From Oribacterium sp. oral taxon 102 (GTDB taxonomy: Bacteria; Bacillota; Clostridia; Lachnospirales; Lachnospiraceae), in contig NZ_JABXYT010000001.1 of the NCBI RefSeq assembly GCF_013394775.1, forward strand, positions 62,001-126,000: 64,000 nt of DNA, read 5' to 3'. The notes beneath the pieces are model-generated. The model did no database searches, was not told the DNA's origin, and saw only the letters and a program-made list of their open reading frames with translations. This document shows positions 10,425 to 62,788 of the stretch, in pieces. The position numbers and the translations under genes were made by a program. Each line of letters starts with the position of its first letter. The stretch's first letter is position 1.

Positions 10425-11981
10425 CTACCCCTCGACGCTCTCCCCCTTTTTCTCCTCCGCAACAGTTTCCTCCGTCGCGGGCGGCTCTGTCCTATGGTAC
10501 CTGCCGTAGGTGCCGAGGATCTCCGCGATCACGCGCTTCTTCTCCTGCGAGAAGGCGTTCTCCTCCAGCCTCCACTGCCAGTTTCCGACGCCCTCGCCCG
10601 GCGCGTTGATCCGCGCCTCGCCGCCCTTGTCCAGATAGTCTGCCGCCGGAACGATCACAGTATCCGCGATGGATGCCATCGCGCGCTTGATCAGCAGCTC
10701 TGGCATGAATTTCCAGTCGTTGCCGGAGCGAGAGGTGTAGCGGTAAATATAATCCCTCTGCCAGTCCGGAAGAGTGTCGAACCAATGGCGGAGCGTATCG
10801 TTGTCATGCGTGCCGGTGTAGCAGATGCAGTTCGGCGTCGTGAAGTTGTGCGGGAGATAGGTATTTCCGGCGCCGCTGTCCCAGGCGAATTGCAGCACCT
10901 TCATTCCCGGAAAGCCGGTTTGCTCCATCAGCTCCACGACCTCTTCCGTGATGACTCCCAGATCCTCTGCAACAATCGGCAGCTTTTCCGTGCCAAAGTG
11001 GGAATACATCGCCTCAAACAGCGCCATTCCCGGACCCTTCACCCATTTCCCGTTCTCCGCAGTTTCCTCCCCGTACGGTATGGCATAGTATGCCTCGAAG
11101 CCGCGAAAATGATCGACCCGCAGCTCGTCGTAGAGCCCGAGGCAGTAGTCCATCCGATCCAGCCACCAGCGGAAGCCGCTCTTCTCGTGCGCCCTCCAGT
11201 CATAGAGCGGATTGCCCCAGAGCTGTCCGGTCGCGGAAAACGCGTCCGGCGGCACGCCCGCGACCGACTTCGGATGACCGAGATTGTCATACTGGAACAG
11301 CTCCCGATGTGCCCAGACATCTGCACTGTCCGGCGCACAGTAGATCGGGATATCGCCTAAGATGCGGATATCTCTCGCTCCCGCATACGCCCGAAGCCTC
11401 TTCCACTGCTCCTGAAATTTCAGCTGCAAAAAGGCGAAGAAGCCGATTTCCTCCTCCTGCGCCTCCATAAACGCTGCCACCGCCCTCTCCTGCCTGTCCC
11501 GCAGCGCTTCCGGCCAGACATCCCAGCTCGCGCCGCCGAGGCTTTCCTTGATCGCCATGAAAACGCAGTAGCTCTGCGTCTCCGCCGGAATGCTCCGGAG
11601 CGCCTCCTTCGGCGTATTCCCTGCCTTCCGCCAGCCCGCATAGGCACGGCGCAGCGCGGCAAACTTCGCCGCATACAGCTTCCCATAATCCACTCTCTCG
11701 CTGTCCTCTCCGAAGTCAAGCGCTGCAAGCTCCTCCGAAGCCAGCAGCCCCTCCGAAACCAGTGTCTCGAGGTCGATGAAGTACGGATTGCCCGCGAATG
11801 CCGAGAATGCCTGATACGGAGAATTTCCGAAGCCCGTCGGTCCCATCGGGAGGATCTGCCAGATCCGATTCCCTGTCTCCGATAAGAAATCTACAAAGTC
11901 AAATGCCGCCTTTCCCAGCGTTCCTACCCCGTACCTGCCCGGAAGAGAAAATACCGGAAGAAGAATTCCTGCCTGTTTCAT
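10425..11981 (-). CDS. malQ: 4-alpha-glucanotransferase (amylomaltase)
   Basis: 518 residues from ATG 11981, preferred over 12002 because AGGAG is 8 nt upstream and the protein starts M-K-Q-A-G-I-L-L-P-V as in the family. GH77 enzyme that disproportionates maltodextrins in the cytoplasm. The catalytic residues are in place: nucleophile Asp in L-R-V-D-H-F-R-G-F, acid/base Glu in IVAEDLGVIT and the third carboxylate in YTGTHDNDT. Ends convergently with the GH127 gene, 48 bp apart. Third gene of a run after glgB and the GlgX-like gene, pointing to glycogen or maltodextrin turnover. Confidence 0.95.
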   Translation of the reverse strand: MKQAGILLPVFSLPGRYGVGTLGKAAFDFVDFLSETGNRIWQILPMGPTGFGNSPYQAFSAFAGNPYFIDLETLVSEGLLASEELAALDFGEDSERVDYGKLYAAKFAALRRAYAGWRKAGNTPKEALRSIPAETQSYCVFMAIKESLGGASWDVWPEALRDRQERAVAAFMEAQEEEIGFFAFLQLKFQEQWKRLRAYAGARDIRILGDIPIYCAPDSADVWAHRELFQYDNLGHPKSVAGVPPDAFSATGQLWGNPLYDWRAHEKSGFRWWLDRMDYCLGLYDELRVDHFRGFEAYYAIPYGEETAENGKWVKGPGMALFEAMYSHFGTEKLPIVAEDLGVITEEVVELMEQTGFPGMKVLQFAWDSGAGNTYLPHNFTTPNCICYTGTHDNDTLRHWFDTLPDWQRDYIYRYTSRSGNDWKFMPELLIKRAMASIADTVIVPAADYLDKGGEARINAPGEGVGNWQWRLEENAFSQEKKRVIAEILGTYGRYHRTEPPATEETVAEEKKGESVEG

Positions 11982-12011
11982 ACTCATTTCTCCTGAATCC
12001 ACATTTTTTCC

Positions 12012-14390
12012 TTATTTGCTTTTCTTTCTCGTCGTTTTCGGTTTCGCAGCTTTTGCTGCCTTTCCGCTGCGGTTACCCGCTGCCGGCTTCGCGGCTTTTA
12101 CTTCCCTTCTGCCGCGGCTCCCCGCTGCCGGCTTCCGCTCCTCCTCCGACAGCTCCGTGAGACGGTAGAAGACCGTGGACATCGCCGGGATATCCAACGC
12201 GACGCTGTATTCCCGCTCGTCCCATTCCCGCTTCTCCGACCTGCGCTCTGTCTTCCGTACGATGCCTGCGCCGCCGTATTTCCTGTCATCGGAGGACAGC
12301 AGCGCCTTCACCCTGCACGGGAACGGAACCCCGATCCGGAACTTCTCATGCGTGATATTGTCAAAGTTGGAAACCACCAGAATCGTCTCGGAGGGATGGT
12401 CGGTCTCCCGCAGGAAGAACAGCAGCGAAAGCTCCGGATAGGAGCAGTTGATCCACTCAAAGCCGTCCGGGTAGTAATCCAGCCGCGACAGTGCGGGACT
12501 CTCGCGATAAAGCACATTCAGATCCCGCACATAGCTCTGGATGCCCTTATGCACCGGATATTCGAGGAGGTTCCACTCCAGCTCCTGTCCCTCGTTCCAC
12601 TCGTCATATTGTCCGAAGTCCTGTCCCATAAACAGCAGCTTCTTGCCCGGATGCCCGTAGAAATACCCGTATGCCGCCCGCAGATTCTGCGCCTTCTCCT
12701 CGAAGGTACTGCCCGGCATCTTTCCCAAAAGGCTCCGCTTTCCGTGGACGACCTCATCATGGGAGAATACCAGCATGAAATCCTCAGAATAGTTATAGAG
12801 CATGGAGAAGGTCAGCTTACTGTAGCTGCCCTTCCGGAAAAACGGGTCTGTCTCCATATAGGAAAGGAAATCGTTCATCCAGCCCATGTTCCACTTCAGG
12901 TCGAAGCCCAGCCCATCCGACTCCACCGAGCCGGTGACATTCGGCCATGCCGTCGACTCCTCCGCGATCAGGAGCGTTCCCGGAAACGCCTTTCGGAACT
13001 GACTGTTCAGGTGCTTCAGGAATTCTACCGCCTCAAGGTTTTCATTGCCGCCGTAAATATTTCTGGATGCTTCCCCGCCCTGCCTGCCATAGTCGAGATA
13101 GAGCATGGAAGCGACCGCGTCCATGCGGATCCCGTCTGCGTGGAAGCGCTCTGCCCAGTAGAACGCATTCGCGATCAGGAAGTTGCTGACCTCGTAGCGC
13201 GCGTAGTGGAAGATCAGCGTGCCCCAGTGCGGATGCGTACCCCGGAGCGGATCCGGATTCTCGTAGAGCGCTGTCCCGTCGAAGTCGGCAAGTCCCCAGC
13301 TGTCCCGCGGGAAATGCGCCGGCACCCAATCGAGGATCACCCCGATCCCGGCACGATGCAGGTAATCTACGAAGTACATGAAGTCCTCCGGAGAGCCGTA
13401 GCGGGAGGTCGGTGCGTAATAGCCGGAGACCTGATAGCCCCAGGACTGATCCAAAGGATGCTCCATCACCGGCATCAGCTCCACATGGGTATAGCCCTCC
13501 TTTTTTACATAATTGCAGAGCTTCTCTGCCAGCTCCCGGTAATTATAGAATTCCGAGCCGTTGACACTGCTGCCGTCCTCATCAACGAAAGCGCTCTTCC
13601 GCGCGAAGGAGCCGAGGTGCAGCTCGTAGACCGACATCGGGTGCTCCTTCTGCCCGCCTGCTGCCTTTTTCTCCTGCCATTCCCCGTCGCCCCAGTCGAA
13701 ATCGTGCCCGGAAACCAGTGCCGCAGTATTCGGCCGAAGCTCAAAGGCATAGCCGTAGGGATCCGTCTTCAGAAACGGCTCCCGCCCCGGACGCCGGAGC
13801 TCAAACTTGTAGAGCGAGCCGACCGGGAGATGCGGGATAAAAAGCTCGAAAATTCCGCTGTCTCCCAGCTTCTCCATCTGATGCCGCCGTCCGTCCCAGA
13901 GATTGAAGTCTCCCACCACGGAGACCCGCATCGCATTCGGTGCCCAAACGGAGAAGTTCACACCCTCTACGCCGTCCCGCACCATCGGCTGCGCCCCCAT
14001 TTTCTCATAGATACGGTAATGAATACCCGCTGCGAACTTCCGGAGATCCTCCCCCGTGTAAATGGAATCGAAGAAGTAAGGATCCTCCGTCTCGACCGTA
14101 CTGTCATTGTCATAGGTGATCTCCAGCGTATACCTCGGCAGCCTCTTTTCCCAGCTCCGCTTCGCCGGGAGAAGCAGCGCGAAGAAGCCGCCCTCGTCCA
14201 TCAGCTCCATCGGATAGCACTTCCCGGAAAGCTTCACTGTGATCGCCTTCGCCGTCGGGAGATAGCACTGCAGCAGCAGTCCCTCCGGCAGGAGATGAGG
14301 CCCCAGTATCCGCTTCGGATGCGTAGACTCGGCATAGCTGAGCTCCTCCACGTCCGCCCAGTTCATCAGCTCATACAAACTCTCATTCAT
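12012..14390 (-). CDS. glgB: 1,4-alpha-glucan branching enzyme with basic Lys/Ala/Pro tail
   Basis: 792 residues. Order: N-terminal CBM48-like modules (residues about 30-220), GH13 barrel (about 240-620) and C-terminal beta domain. Intact catalytic elements: D-W-V-P-A-H-F (region I), D-G-I-R-M-D-A-V (nucleophile Asp), L-L-I-A-E-E-S (acid/base Glu) and F-S-H-D-E-V-V-H-G. It forms alpha-1,6 branches in glycogen. Its ATG overlaps the stop of the GlgX-like gene as ATGA. The last 40 residues (about 753-792) are an unusual Lys/Ala/Pro/Arg-rich repeat-like tail (K-A-A-K-P-A-A-G, K-A-A-K-A-A-K-P-K) resembling histone-H1-like tails, beyond the normal end of the enzyme. Confidence 0.95.
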   Translation of the reverse strand: MNESLYELMNWADVEELSYAESTHPKRILGPHLLPEGLLLQCYLPTAKAITVKLSGKCYPMELMDEGGFFALLLPAKRSWEKRLPRYTLEITYDNDSTVETEDPYFFDSIYTGEDLRKFAAGIHYRIYEKMGAQPMVRDGVEGVNFSVWAPNAMRVSVVGDFNLWDGRRHQMEKLGDSGIFELFIPHLPVGSLYKFELRRPGREPFLKTDPYGYAFELRPNTAALVSGHDFDWGDGEWQEKKAAGGQKEHPMSVYELHLGSFARKSAFVDEDGSSVNGSEFYNYRELAEKLCNYVKKEGYTHVELMPVMEHPLDQSWGYQVSGYYAPTSRYGSPEDFMYFVDYLHRAGIGVILDWVPAHFPRDSWGLADFDGTALYENPDPLRGTHPHWGTLIFHYARYEVSNFLIANAFYWAERFHADGIRMDAVASMLYLDYGRQGGEASRNIYGGNENLEAVEFLKHLNSQFRKAFPGTLLIAEESTAWPNVTGSVESDGLGFDLKWNMGWMNDFLSYMETDPFFRKGSYSKLTFSMLYNYSEDFMLVFSHDEVVHGKRSLLGKMPGSTFEEKAQNLRAAYGYFYGHPGKKLLFMGQDFGQYDEWNEGQELEWNLLEYPVHKGIQSYVRDLNVLYRESPALSRLDYYPDGFEWINCSYPELSLLFFLRETDHPSETILVVSNFDNITHEKFRIGVPFPCRVKALLSSDDRKYGGAGIVRKTERRSEKREWDEREYSVALDIPAMSTVFYRLTELSEEERKPAAGSRGRREVKAAKPAAGNRSGKAAKAAKPKTTRKKSK

Positions 14391-16249
14391 ACCCTACCTC
14401 CTGTATTCCCCTGCTTCCTCCGTCTTGTCCTGCCCTTCCTCTGCACCGGCTCGGAGACTGCCTGAATCACGACGATGCTTCTCGCCCGAACCACACACAC
14501 GCCGTCCGTAATTTCCCGCAGCGCGCCGTCCGAAGAGATCCCCCTCTCCTCCTCCGTGTCAATTACCACGCGCCACCGCGTCTCCGGGAGCGGATGCGGC
14601 AGACGGAAGGAATGATCCTCCCAGTGAAAATTGTAGAGAACCAGAAAGCTCTCGTCCTCTGCATAGCCCCCGGCATACATCACCCCGAGCTCCCGTCGAT
14701 AATGCTCGAGATCCACTCTCCACGCGTTTTCCCCGTGGAAGCTGATATCCGGTATGCCCCGGCTCCGATAGTCCAGTCCCCGGAGCGGCTCTCTCTGATG
14801 AAACACCCGATGCGCCTTACGGAAACGGATCAGTGCCTTCGTAAACTCGAAGAGCTCCCGGTTCTTCTCCAGCAGCCGCCAATTAAGCCAGCTCGTCCCG
14901 TTGTCCTGACAATAGGAATTGTTGTTGCCGTTCTTCGTCCTGCCGAACTCGTCTCCCGCATTGAGGAGCGGCGTGCCCTGCGAGAGGAAGAGCAGCAGCA
15001 GTGCATTACGAAGCATCTTCCGTCGGAGCAGCTTCACGCTCTTCCTCCGGCTCCTCCCCTCCTCCCCGCAGTTCCAGGAGAAGTTGTAGTCGGTTCCGTC
15101 TCGGTTTCCCTCGCCGTTTTTCTCATTATGCTTACGGTCATAGCTCAGGAGATCCCAAAGCGTGAAGCCCTCCTCGTTCGCCATGTACCGGATCGCCGCC
15201 GCGCCCGCTGTACATCCGCGCAGACGTCCCATCAGGGTCGGAAGCATGTTCTCATCCCCCTTCAGCACACGCCGCATCTCATTCTGGAAGCCATCATTGT
15301 ACTCCGCGAGGAAATGGCGGCTCTGCCCGTCCGGCGGACTGTCCCAGCGGTCTGCCCAGAGCTTGAAGCGGCGCAGATACGGATCTCGCGCGAGCTCCGC
15401 ATACGGCGCGCTGCCGATCAGATGAACGCCATCCACATGATACGCCGTCCGCCAGCAGCGCAGTACCGTGTGAATGTAGCTCGGAAGCGTATCCTCTGTG
15501 AAGTACAGATCCACGATCAGCTCGATTCCATTCCGATGCAGGGTCTGTACCAGAGTCCGGAATTCCTCCTGCGGACTGCCGCCCGCGCTGACGTAGGATG
15601 CCTTCGGCGCGATCCGCAGCGCATCCTCCGTGAAGCCCCAGTAATTGATCTGTCCCGTAGGCCGAAGGAGCGCCTGCCGCTCGCCCTCTGCGGGTTCCTC
15701 CGCAAAATGCGGGAGCATGACCTCATTAAACTCATAGGGAGGCAGCAGCTCCAGCGCCGTCACGCCGAGCTCCCGGAGATAGGGCAGCTTCTCGAGGATA
15801 CCGGCGAAGCTCCCCCTCTTTCCCTGTCCGACACCGGAGGAGCGATCCTGTGTGAAGCCTCGGACATGGATGCGGTAAATAATGCTGTCCTCATACGGCG
15901 TTTGCAGCGCCCGATCCCGCTGCCACTCCTCCGTCTCCTCCGGAGGCGAAGCACCGATCGGTGTCCTGAGGAGCCTCGTACCGTCCCGCAGCCTGCCGAA
16001 ATGCCGACGGCCTGTAAATGCGAAGCCGTTCGGATCGGAAAAGGCTCTGCCGTCCGCCTCATAGGCATAGGAAAGTCCCGTAAGCTTCTCCGACACCCGC
16101 AGCGTCCAGACATCCCCGATCCGTTCCTCCGGCGGGAAGCGAAGCTGTCGTATCCGTCTCGCTCCCCTGTAAAGATTCAGGAACAGCTCCTCCGCATCAC
16201 TGACTACCCGAAATATATAGCTGTCTCCCGATTTCTCCAGTCCAAGCAC
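14387..16249 (-). CDS. GlgX/isoamylase-like GH13 protein with all catalytic residues lost
   Basis: 620 residues from a GTG start at 16249 (GGGAG 7 nt upstream). A CBM48-like N-terminus (about 1-110) and a GH13 barrel align with glycogen debranching enzymes through HVRGFTQDRSSGV, NYWGF, GFTLWDLLSYDRKHNEKNGEGNRDG, LLLSQGTPLLNAGDEFGRTK-like and NNNSYCQDN segments. The active site is gone: region II reads H-V-D-G-V-H-L-I-G-S, so the nucleophile Asp is Ile278 and the conserved Arg is His276; region I is D-L-Y-F-T-E-D instead of D-I-V-x-N-H-S; region III A-E-P-W-D became A-D-R-W-D; region IV A-H-D-G-F-T became N-E-E-G-F-T. About 45 residues between regions I and II are missing. The frame is intact and coupled to glgB, so it is probably a maintained non-catalytic glycogen-binding or regulatory protein rather than a decaying gene. 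Confidence 0.9.
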   Translation of the reverse strand: MLGLEKSGDSYIFRVVSDAEELFLNLYRGARRIRQLRFPPEERIGDVWTLRVSEKLTGLSYAYEADGRAFSDPNGFAFTGRRHFGRLRDGTRLLRTPIGASPPEETEEWQRDRALQTPYEDSIIYRIHVRGFTQDRSSGVGQGKRGSFAGILEKLPYLRELGVTALELLPPYEFNEVMLPHFAEEPAEGERQALLRPTGQINYWGFTEDALRIAPKASYVSAGGSPQEEFRTLVQTLHRNGIELIVDLYFTEDTLPSYIHTVLRCWRTAYHVDGVHLIGSAPYAELARDPYLRRFKLWADRWDSPPDGQSRHFLAEYNDGFQNEMRRVLKGDENMLPTLMGRLRGCTAGAAAIRYMANEEGFTLWDLLSYDRKHNEKNGEGNRDGTDYNFSWNCGEEGRSRRKSVKLLRRKMLRNALLLLFLSQGTPLLNAGDEFGRTKNGNNNSYCQDNGTSWLNWRLLEKNRELFEFTKALIRFRKAHRVFHQREPLRGLDYRSRGIPDISFHGENAWRVDLEHYRRELGVMYAGGYAEDESFLVLYNFHWEDHSFRLPHPLPETRWRVVIDTEEERGISSDGALREITDGVCVVRARSIVVIQAVSEPVQRKGRTRRRKQGNTGGRV

Positions 16250-19977: not shown

Positions 19978-20736
19978 CTACACCTCGATTTCCAGCTCAA
20001 CCGGACAATGATCCGAGCCCATCACCTCCTGGTGGATACACGCGGCACGCATATTTTCCCGAAGCTTCTCGGAAACCACAAAGTAGTCGATTCTCCAGCC
20101 TACATTCCGCTCTCTCGCCTTCGTGCGGTAGCTCCACCAGCTGTATTCCTCCGCCTCGGGATGGAAATGCCGGAAGGAATCCACATATCCGCTGTCCAGA
20201 AGCTGCGAGAACTTCGCACGCTCCTCGTCCGAGAAGCCGGCGCTGTTGTGATTCGTCGCCGGATTCTTCAGATCAATCTCCTCATGTGCGACATTGAGGT
20301 CTCCGCAGTAGATCACCGGCTTCTCCTTCTCCAGCCCGAGGATATAGCCCCGCCACGCGTCCTCCCATTCCATCCGGTACGGGAGCCGCTTCAGCTCATT
20401 CTGAGAGTTCGGCACATAGACCGTGAGCACATAGCAGTCAGGAAACTCCGCGGTAATGACGCGCCCCTCCCTGTCATGCTCCTCAATGCCGATGCCGAAA
20501 CGCACGGAAAGCGGCTCCTCCTTCGTGAAGAGCGCTGTCCCGGAATAGCCCCTCTTCTCTGCGTAGTTCCAGTACTGATGATAGCCCGGAAGCGGCAGCT
20601 CCAGCTGCCCCGCGGACAGCTTCGTCTCCTGCAGGCAGAAAATATCCGCATCCAATGCCCGGAAGTCCTCCATGAAGTTCTTTCCCAGCACGGCGCGAAG
20701 CCCGTTCACGTTCCACGAAATCATTTTTTTTATCAT
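19978..20736 (-). CDS. exoA: Exodeoxyribonuclease III / AP endonuclease
   Basis: 252 residues from ATG 20736, chosen because GAGGA lies 6 nt upstream. All signature motifs of the ExoIII family are present: I-S-W-N-V-N-G-L-R-A at the N-terminus, F-C-L-Q-E-T-K-L (metal-binding Glu), Y-C-G-D-L-N-V-A-H (catalytic Asp and Asn), W-R-I-D-Y-F and the final S-D-H-C-P-V with the catalytic Asp-His. Repairs abasic sites and 3' blocks in DNA. Same direction as and 4 bp from the rRNA methyltransferase gene, hence co-transcribed. Confidence 0.95.
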   Translation of the reverse strand: MIKKMISWNVNGLRAVLGKNFMEDFRALDADIFCLQETKLSAGQLELPLPGYHQYWNYAEKRGYSGTALFTKEEPLSVRFGIGIEEHDREGRVITAEFPDCYVLTVYVPNSQNELKRLPYRMEWEDAWRGYILGLEKEKPVIYCGDLNVAHEEIDLKNPATNHNSAGFSDEERAKFSQLLDSGYVDSFRHFHPEAEEYSWWSYRTKARERNVGWRIDYFVVSEKLRENMRAACIHQEVMGSDHCPVELEIEV

Positions 20737-20853
20737 AGCTTTCCTCTTCTCTACCTCTGTCAAAGCATAGCACTCCGCTCATCATGATTCCGGCGAAAGG
20801 CTCCGGTAAATTCCCCCCGCCGAATCATCTGCGGAGTCCTGTCTCTCCCTCTG

Positions 20854-60490: not shown

Positions 60491-62788
60491 TTACTCCGCA
60501 CCTTCCAGAAGCCAGCTCTGATAGCGCCGGAGCTGCCGCTCCGTTTCCTCCCGGGAAAGTTCCGGTTTCGGAAGCCCCTCCCAGACATAGCGGAGCCGCT
60601 CCCGATCCACCAAGAGCAGCATATAGCCGCCCTCGCAGTCCATCTCCCGCAGCATCCCGTCCGAGAGCAATGCAGGCAGAAGCTGCCGGTTCCGCTCCGA
60701 TTCCGGCTTCTCCAGGAAACGCCGCTCGAGATAAACATAATCCGTCTCCGCCCAATAGAGGAACCACTCGAAATAGCGGAGCTCGTCATAGAGCCCGGGG
60801 CTCCCGCCGGAGCCCTCCACATCCGTAATCGCCTGTACATTGCAGAGCAGCCGGTAAGCATCCGGTGTCTCCGAGAAGCTGAGCACCCGCGTCTTCGGAT
60901 TCTCGGAAAGCTTCTCCCAGAAACGCAGGCTTCCCTTTGCCTGCTCCTCCTCCCGGATTACCGCGATATTGTCATAGTAACCCCGATTCACGAGATCGAT
61001 AGGGGTGAAGCCCACCGCCCCTGCCCAGCTCGTAATCAGCGTCGTCGCGAGCGCCGGCAGGAAGAGGAGCCGGAATACCGGACGCGGCGGCAGGATTCTC
61101 CCCGACAGCGCGGCGAGCAGGAGGAGACAGTCGAAGAGAATGTAGTAATTGCCATCCACCTGCCAGAGCATCCCAAGGCTCAGGAGCGAAAAGGCGCCAA
61201 CCGTGAAGAGCTGCGCATAGAGCAGTCTTCTCTCCCCGGAGAGCCTGATCCCCGCCACGCATTCCCTGCGGCGTTCCGTGAAAAGCAGCGCGAGCAGCGG
61301 CGGAATCCAGACGCCGCCCCAGGCGATCGCGACATGAAGCATATCCTCTCCGACCGGGCAGAACAGCAGCAGGAACAGGCGGCGAAGCAGGGACAGAAGG
61401 GCAATACCCGGACTGCGCGCGCCGCTGTAATCGATATGCGCGTCCAGATTGAAGGGCCAGTTCACCCGGAATCCCATGCGCTGAAACAGCGCCGTAAAGG
61501 TCGTGGAAACCGGCACGCCGGTGATACAGAGCGTCCGCAGTGTGACCAGTCCCGTGAAGGCAGTGCAGAAGAGCAGCGCCGGCAGTGCGCTTCGGAAGTC
61601 TGCCGCAGCAGCGCTTCGAGGGGCACTCTGCTCCACCCCTGTTTCCGCTCCCCCTGCCGCGCCCCGCGCTTCCGAATCGGCACAGAACAATCCATCTCTC
61701 CTGCCGCCCGCCTCCCTCCCTCGCGCGAGGCAGCGCTCCCGGAGAAGCTCTCCCGACAGCACGAGCAGAGAAAGGGTCGTGAAAACCACCGCCGTCGGCT
61801 TCAGCGAATAGCTGAAGATCCCCGCGGCAAGCCCCTTCCACGGCTTCTCCCGCAGAAAATAAAAGAGCAGCAGGAGCTGGAAAAGAAGCGTCAGCAGATC
61901 CGTCTTCGCCGTAAGCGACATATTGGTGACGGCACTCAGCATGAGGAGGATCTGCACTGCCAGATCCGCATGCAGACGGCTGCCGGAAAGCTGCCGGCTC
62001 AGAAGCCAGACCAGAAGGGCGATTGCCAGCAGCGTCCAGAACTGAAGCATAAAGGGCAGCGCGAAGCAGGGAAAGCTGCTGATCGGGGCGAGCAGCAGCT
62101 CCAGCCCCTTGGGATAGCTGTACACCGCATTGACCTGCCCCAGCGCCGAGAAGAAGCTTCCATTCAGGAGAACATAACGCGAGCGGAGCCCGTAGCGGAG
62201 CGAATCATAGTCCGCCGCGATATTCATCCGATTCAACTGGATCAGCAGAAAGGGCAGTGCATAGCTCAGGCGATAAACGCCATATGCCTCTCTCTCCGTT
62301 CCCTGCCCGTACCGCACTCCCTGCCGTTTCGCTGCCGCGCCGCCCCGCGCCGCGCTCCTGCCCGTACCGTCCCGGAAACGCCGGAGCATATCCCGCACCG
62401 CCCCAAGCTCTCCGAATATCCAAAGAAAGAGGAGGGCGAGCAGGGCGAAGTACAGTCCCGAAAGCAGAAAGGGCAGCAGCATCCTGTGCAGATAGAGCTC
62501 CGCCGAAAAAAGCAGGGAGACCAAAGCACCGTACCACCGCCGCGTGAGCCGTCCGTGCAAAAGGGAACCCTCCAGCAGGAAAAGAAGCGCCGTAACGAAA
62601 GAAAGCTCCGCTGCCGCAGAAAGGTTCTTCGGCTCCAGCAGCCGCTCCCAGTTCCCGGACAGGGGGTAGAAGAGCAGGAAGCCCAGCAGCGCGCCAATAC
62701 AGGACAGGAAAAGAAGAGGACTGCTGCTCCTGTCAGCATCCTCTCTTCTGCCCTGTTTTTTTTCTGCCGCTCCGCTTTCGTAGCTCAC
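60491..62788 (-). CDS. Very large polytopic membrane protein, GT-C-like
   Basis: 765 residues from GTG 62788, which overlaps the stop of the preceding gene as GTGA. About thirteen hydrophobic segments; the loop M-N-I-A-A-D-Y-D-S-L-R-Y-G-L-R resembles the acidic first loop of GT-C enzymes. A low-complexity insertion (A-R-G-R-E-A-G-G-R-R-D-G-L-F) lies around residues 355-400. The C-terminal 150 residues are soluble with V-I-R-E-E-E-Q-A-K-G. No firm family. Probably transfers a sugar from a lipid carrier onto the surface polymer. Confidence 0.75.
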   Translation of the reverse strand: MSYESGAAEKKQGRREDADRSSSPLLFLSCIGALLGFLLFYPLSGNWERLLEPKNLSAAAELSFVTALLFLLEGSLLHGRLTRRWYGALVSLLFSAELYLHRMLLPFLLSGLYFALLALLFLWIFGELGAVRDMLRRFRDGTGRSAARGGAAAKRQGVRYGQGTEREAYGVYRLSYALPFLLIQLNRMNIAADYDSLRYGLRSRYVLLNGSFFSALGQVNAVYSYPKGLELLLAPISSFPCFALPFMLQFWTLLAIALLVWLLSRQLSGSRLHADLAVQILLMLSAVTNMSLTAKTDLLTLLFQLLLLFYFLREKPWKGLAAGIFSYSLKPTAVVFTTLSLLVLSGELLRERCLARGREAGGRRDGLFCADSEARGAAGGAETGVEQSAPRSAAAADFRSALPALLFCTAFTGLVTLRTLCITGVPVSTTFTALFQRMGFRVNWPFNLDAHIDYSGARSPGIALLSLLRRLFLLLFCPVGEDMLHVAIAWGGVWIPPLLALLFTERRRECVAGIRLSGERRLLYAQLFTVGAFSLLSLGMLWQVDGNYYILFDCLLLLAALSGRILPPRPVFRLLFLPALATTLITSWAGAVGFTPIDLVNRGYYDNIAVIREEEQAKGSLRFWEKLSENPKTRVLSFSETPDAYRLLCNVQAITDVEGSGGSPGLYDELRYFEWFLYWAETDYVYLERRFLEKPESERNRQLLPALLSDGMLREMDCEGGYMLLLVDRERLRYVWEGLPKPELSREETERQLRRYQSWLLEGAE

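Follow-up and report, generated by a model that had tools for sequence, protein, structure and literature searches.

pGlgX, a candidate non-catalytic GlgX paralogue of Lachnospiraceae that may bind glycogen without cutting it

Results and discussion

The window analyzed here is a stretch of 64,000 nucleotides from Oribacterium sp. oral taxon 102 (NZ_JABXYT010000001.1, positions 62,001–126,000), and the protein encoded at its positions 14387–16249 is here named pGlgX. Sequence comparisons suggest, with a probability that we put at roughly 0.6, that pGlgX is a non-catalytic paralogue, specific to its lineage, of the isoamylase-type debranching enzyme GlgX, that it binds glycogen uncut and modulates glycogen metabolism, and that its partner in the window's genus is likely the adjacent branching enzyme GlgB1. 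In the scheme that we propose, pGlgX arose probably once in Lachnospiraceae, a large bacterial family of gut and rumen, through loss of the catalytic residues and most residues of the −1 subsite and fixation of a deletion of about 44 residues. The GlgX fold would have been kept, together with residues by which GlgX grips the glucan at a distance from its cleavage point. The most likely action of pGlgX would be to bind glycogen chains but leave them uncut, in the manner of a lectin-like subunit or a chain guide, and to modulate the building or breakdown of glycogen.

14387..16249, minus strand: pGlgX, predicted to be a catalytically dead GlgX-like protein, 620 residues, GTG start (open reading frame, profile and structure comparison)

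Family assignment and predicted fold

The only Pfam match of pGlgX was a partial one to Alpha-amylase (34.8 bits, residues 139–248). Its best NCBIfam model was that of GlgX (TIGR02100), with a score of 317.6 bits, which lies under the cut-off of 640.9, and the closest solved sequences were GlgX, TreX and plant isoamylases including ISA2. A first structure model, made from 28 alignment rows, was poor (predicted local distance difference test score 72.4, predicted template modeling score 0.77), and a second from 137 rows, 13 of which are true GlgX, was good. The predicted model matches the GlgX/isoamylase fold, with an N-terminal beta domain, a barrel and a C-terminal beta domain.

Loss of the catalytic site

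Alignment of pGlgX with true GlgX paralogues of its relatives showed that none of the seven canonical active-site residues is kept. The N-H of region I is replaced by T251-E252, the Arg and the nucleophile Asp of region II by H276 and I278, the general acid Glu of region III by D300 (A-D-R), and the H-D of region IV by E359-E360, which bears out the replacements that the original prediction had read from this gene. In two of these, the general acid (E to D) and the stabilizer (D to E), one acid stands for another.

15491..15511, minus strand: degenerate region I, D-L-Y-F-T-E-D, residues 247–253, with N-H lost and the deletion of about 44 residues after it (alignment)
15410..15433, minus strand: degenerate region II, D-G-V-H-L-I-G-S, residues 273–280, with Ile at the nucleophile position (alignment)
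15344..15361, minus strand: degenerate region III, L-W-A-D-R-W, residues 297–302 (alignment)

The alignment contained 124 pGlgX members, picked by their similarity to the window protein and not a random sample, and 13 true GlgX; frames longer than 700 residues (L019, L024 and two of 98 later members), near-duplicates and the partial GlgX L052 were left out. All seven canonical residues were present in 13/13 GlgX. Among the pGlgX members, 60 kept none, 37 one, 24 two and 3 three. The catalytic triad had no residue left in 81 members, one in 39 (the acid in 21, the stabilizer in 17 and the nucleophile in L036) and two in 4. Orthologues with intact residues at most loci, which the original prediction had named as the mark of isolated decay, were looked for, and the complete triad was found in 0/124. 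The spacer from the region I His to the region II Asp measured 24–28 residues in every member (25 in 118) versus 69–71 in 13/13 GlgX, a deletion of about 44 residues common to the whole aligned family, close to the 45 or so first estimated from the window gene. Judged by sequence, we regard the loss of GH13 catalysis in pGlgX as close to certain.

A new enzyme activity of the old barrel, using other acids such as Glu380, Glu397, Glu434 or Asp493, would also account for a conserved protein without the GH13 residues. The predicted fold is intact, and a number of acids are fully or almost fully conserved (E380, E397, E434 and D384 in 124/124, D493 in 123/124). However, the nucleophile, acid and stabilizer positions vary freely; the nucleophile column holds N in 26 members, I in 21, V in 18, M in 18, K in 12, L in 8, Y in 6, S in 5, T in 4, F in 2, and G, D, A and C in one each. 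No replacement acid is fixed at the catalytic positions across the 124 members. D384, E397 and E434 are conserved in true GlgX and E380 lies at a GlgX substrate contact, so that these acids need no new role. We therefore consider a new activity, which had been offered earlier as the other possibility, quite improbable.

Distribution, single origin and selection

In a profile search at E ≤ 1e-150, pGlgX was found in 221/299 sampled Lachnospiraceae genomes, including 183 of the 246 near-complete ones, and one genome (G295) had two matches. A survey of 295 genomes of the order gave 44 with an unbroken full-length match, all Lachnospiraceae. Another 30 genomes, from other families, had matches but no unbroken one; these matches fell to one or the other side of about position 249, the site of the extra residues of true GlgX. 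In one further genome of this survey, at G072:C9:44825-46507, the pGlgX match came in two pieces (3–296 and 319–609), possibly a variant missing middle residues. Among 299 genomes of the phylum, the only full-length matches were in G000 and G246, both Lachnospiraceae.

A tree of 42 pGlgX (every third of the 124 members) and the 13 GlgX separated the two groups by a single branch with 100/100 support, in a bootstrap not fully settled and with the root not shown, which fits one origin. The ratio of nonsynonymous to synonymous substitution rates (dN/dS), calculated with our own Nei–Gojobori script, was 0.024–0.083 in nine close pairs, several sharing a member, with dS up to 1.16. A sequencing artefact or isolated decay is extremely improbable, being excluded by the deletion in 124/124 members, the low dN/dS in close pairs and the spread over 221/299 genomes. 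The sequences establish pGlgX, in our view, as a fixed and selected pseudoenzyme family, and the wide conserved set of orthologues, forming one tree group, sustains the earlier proposal of a maintained pseudoenzyme.

Retained residues and putative glucan contacts

Two loops are well kept in pGlgX, with mean top-residue frequencies of 0.81 (residues 366–398) and 0.73 (residues 426–458) versus 0.54 for the whole protein.

15068..15154, minus strand: kept loop after region IV, residues 366–394, with Glu380, Asn375, Asn378, Asp384, Gly385 and Asn393 invariant in 124/124 (alignment)
14900..14956, minus strand: kept loop G-D-E...G-N-N-N-S-Y-C-Q-D-N, residues 432–450, with Asn444 and Tyr446 at glucan-contact columns of Streptomyces GlgX (alignment)

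The motifs GNNNSYCQDN and GFTLWDL are retained in the window protein, as had been noted at the outset. In the part of the Streptomyces venezuelae GlgX study drawn on here, the −1 sugar of bound acarbose is contacted by Trp222, Tyr224, His271, Asp342, Glu378, Trp380 and His449, and the remaining sugars by Arg212, Glu470, Asn534 and Tyr536 (PMC9530166). We mapped these contacts, all but Arg212, by hand through a pairwise alignment, with the chain number minus 3. At the −1 subsite, Trp222 corresponds to W204 (124/124) and Tyr224 to F206 (Y in 92 members, F in 32); the columns of His271, Asp342, Glu378 and His449 no longer hold the GlgX residue as a rule, and the Trp380 column is mixed (W in 51, F in 35). 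Beyond it, Glu470 corresponds to E380 (124/124 in pGlgX, 7/13 in GlgX), Asn534 to N444 (124/124) and Tyr536 to Y446 (Y in 120, W in 4). W204, E380, N444 and an aromatic residue at 446 are kept together in 124/124. Of the 620 columns, 60 are at least 96% conserved; if columns were independent, four given ones would all be so by chance about once in 10,000, a rough figure, as GlgX, too, conserves three of these four. We infer from the kept contacts that pGlgX probably binds glucan, the part of the proposed scaffold or regulator role that they favor.

Gene neighborhood and the tie to GlgB1

12012..14390, minus strand: first glgB copy (GlgB1), with its catalytic motifs intact in the window, adjoining pGlgX
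10425..12002, minus strand: malQ, 4-alpha-glucanotransferase (GH77) (profile matches)

In the window, pGlgX and glgB overlap by 4 nucleotides (14387–14390), and malQ starts 9 nucleotides past the end of glgB. The C-terminal tails of both GlgB1 and pGlgX are rich in Lys and Arg here, and several pGlgX orthologues of the genus have long, variable, charged C-terminal tails.

Within the window's genus, glgB lies directly downstream of pGlgX in 13/13 loci with flanking sequence, two more loci (L018, L020) stopping at a contig edge. The 17 genus genomes examined encode two kinds of GlgB, namely GlgB1, which adjoins pGlgX, and GlgB2. GlgB1 was found in 14 of them, which are all 15 pGlgX carriers except G011, where pGlgX ends its contig. 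Neither GlgB1 nor pGlgX was found in G008 (99% complete) and G012 (97%), which retain GlgB2, the ExoA-like gene and a MalQ 57–58% identical to that of the window. This joint absence, together with the joint presence elsewhere, indicates that pGlgX and GlgB1 are kept or lost as a pair. A partnership of pGlgX with GlgB1 would be consistent with this pattern. GlgB2 stands beside a cyclomaltodextrinase-like GH13 protein of 441 residues in the window's genome (G000:C1:149637-153055).

Neighbors were scored in 80 named loci by matches above 100 bits to the GlgB and MalQ proteins of the window. Both genes were near pGlgX in one locus (L056, of the window's genus); another locus of the genus, L057, is cut. 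The frequent genes were housekeeping genes, namely DUF1292 (34 loci), a UvrD-type helicase (32), GltX (31), DUF5662 (31), ABC-F type proteins (23) and an ExoA-like gene (17). An ExoA-like gene, so named by its likeness, also lies in the window, at 19978–20763, 3.7 kb from pGlgX; the window locus therefore probably represents the old one, to which glgB and malQ were added beside pGlgX. These same neighbors outside the genus could mean that the role for which pGlgX is kept has nothing to do with glucan, such as that of a structural or moonlighting protein of a housekeeping locus. The invariant residues at the GlgX glucan loops and the tie to GlgB1 in the genus argue against such a role, which we consider unlikely.

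Glycogen pathway context

The GH13 proteins of the window's genome (96% complete) are pGlgX, GlgB1, GlgB2, the cyclomaltodextrinase-like protein of 441 residues, a MalZ-like protein of 697 residues and a protein of 687 residues. The last three gave no match to a GlgX or type I pullulanase model at E ≤ 1e-20. This bears on whether pGlgX could be a subunit of true GlgX, in a hetero-oligomer with the active paralogue as ISA2 forms with ISA1, for which the plant proteins give a direct precedent in the part of the study consulted (PMC12510319). In the order survey, GlgX-type matches accompanied full-length pGlgX in 16 of the 44 genomes. With the top four candidates per genome scored, the other 28 had no GlgX match at E ≤ 1e-30, so that pGlgX can apparently do without GlgX. 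The window's genome, too, showed no GlgX among its GH13 proteins. A GlgX subunit thus appears an unlikely role for the family.

A catalytically dead GlgB1 and unusual pGlgX variants

In G005, a metagenome-assembled genome of an uncultured Oribacterium, GlgB1 (L056:10585-12921) is 59% identical to the window GlgB over 784 residues, and all four of its catalytic motifs are lost (DWNPAG, DGLRLTG, IADETA, SHRE). The 29 other GlgB places (13 GlgB1, 16 GlgB2) read DW(V/A)PAH, DG(I/L)R(M/V)DA, IAEEST and SHDE. Across 21 other GlgB, 199 columns are invariant; this protein differs at 36 of them, 35 in residues 251–600 and one in 601–650, with 0/33 altered in residues 101–250. The same genome also has a GlgB with intact motifs (L211) and a third, more distant match (C66). 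We tentatively suggest, though we hold it doubtful, that pGlgX makes up, with GlgB1, a glycogen scaffold of two proteins whose value is independent of catalysis. In this scenario pGlgX would have lost catalysis early in Lachnospiraceae, GlgB1 would have been recruited beside it later in one genus, and catalysis by GlgB1 would then also have been lost in one Oribacterium lineage, leaving two wholly non-catalytic partners that shape glycogen only through binding.

Two pGlgX frames are unusual. The one at L056:8001-10589 is extended at its C-terminus by about 240 residues that have no Pfam match. The one at L024:1504-3819 (G035:C36) carries a C-terminal O6-methylguanine-DNA methyltransferase (PF01035, PF02870) in one open frame, and may be a peculiar fusion of natural origin or the product of misassembly.

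Weighing of the glycogen-binding role

Several observations weigh against a non-catalytic, glycogen-binding pGlgX partnered by GlgB1. No glgB or malQ neighbor was found in any of the 78 named loci outside the genus, some of which are cut short. This rules out a glgB-malQ operon as a rule for the family and makes GlgB scaffolding unreadable from synteny for the family as a whole; the coupling to glgB-malQ in the original prediction thus holds for glgB within the genus and fails beyond it. A single evolutionary event may account for the losses in both G008 and G012, and the dead GlgB1 is known from one metagenome-assembled genome only. GlgA was present in 69/69 genomes tested, 48 with pGlgX and 21 without, and its presence in 21/21 of the latter means that it does not link pGlgX to glycogen. 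The retained contacts, except E380, are conserved in GlgX too and may serve the fold. Finally, dN/dS of the window gene against its nearest listed relatives was 0.28 for L022 and 0.31 for L023 (dS 1.21 and 1.24), values made unsafe by saturation at dS of at least 1.2.

Comparison with known systems

A literature search, with most subscription papers outside its reach, found no description of the pGlgX family. GlgX is treated as an enzyme in the consulted parts of two reviews (PMC11046441, PMC10395257), one of which mentions two glgX homologues in Blautia obeum (PMC10395257). A search for GlgX in Lachnospiraceae can return a protein predicted to be unable to debranch, and glycogen-pathway inventories of gut bacteria may thus credit an absent debranching activity.

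The best sequence and structure relatives of pGlgX are GlgX/TreX (GH13_11) and plant ISA1. pGlgX shares with GlgX/TreX the predicted fold, the order of its domains and two loops, one following region IV and one at GNNN.YCQDN, but lacks the catalytic and most −1 residues, has the deletion of about 44 residues and falls below the TIGR02100 cut-off. GlgB, encoded beside pGlgX in the window's genus and likewise dead in one such copy, is another type of GH13 protein, with a GlgB_N domain.

Among known systems, pGlgX is best compared with ISA2, a non-catalytic isoamylase that has been retained throughout the green plants and is reported to affect polyglucan without catalysis; why ISA2 stays selected is not understood, according to the plant group, in the part of their study used here (PMC12510319). 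Like pGlgX, it is a GH13_11 paralogue that lost its catalytic residues and was then retained across a lineage (same source). pGlgX may work like ISA2 in outline, but we do not class it as ISA2, because it belongs to a separate lineage, found solely in Lachnospiraceae in these surveys, has no extra N-terminal domain, keeps its central contacts and often has no GlgX partner. There was no sign in pGlgX of the extra N-terminal beta-sandwich that precedes CBM48 in ISA2; residue 1 of the predicted pGlgX model aligns to rice ISA1 residue 103, where the shared domains begin. The portion of the plant study consulted reports ISA2 to be without glucan binding in its central channel (PMC12510319), whereas the glucan-contact residues of that channel are kept in pGlgX. 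The partner of ISA2 is active ISA1, whereas no GlgX partner was seen in 28/44 pGlgX genomes. The pGlgX profile, which includes the 13 GlgX rows, scored 528 bits against ISA1 and 288 bits against ISA2. A non-catalytic scaffold of pGlgX and GlgB1 would, if true, amount to a bacterial counterpart of ISA2 that evolved independently. pGlgX, a bacterial family that shows a loss of this kind and whose genes are mostly single-copy, would make the question of ISA2 retention in plants testable in a simpler setting.
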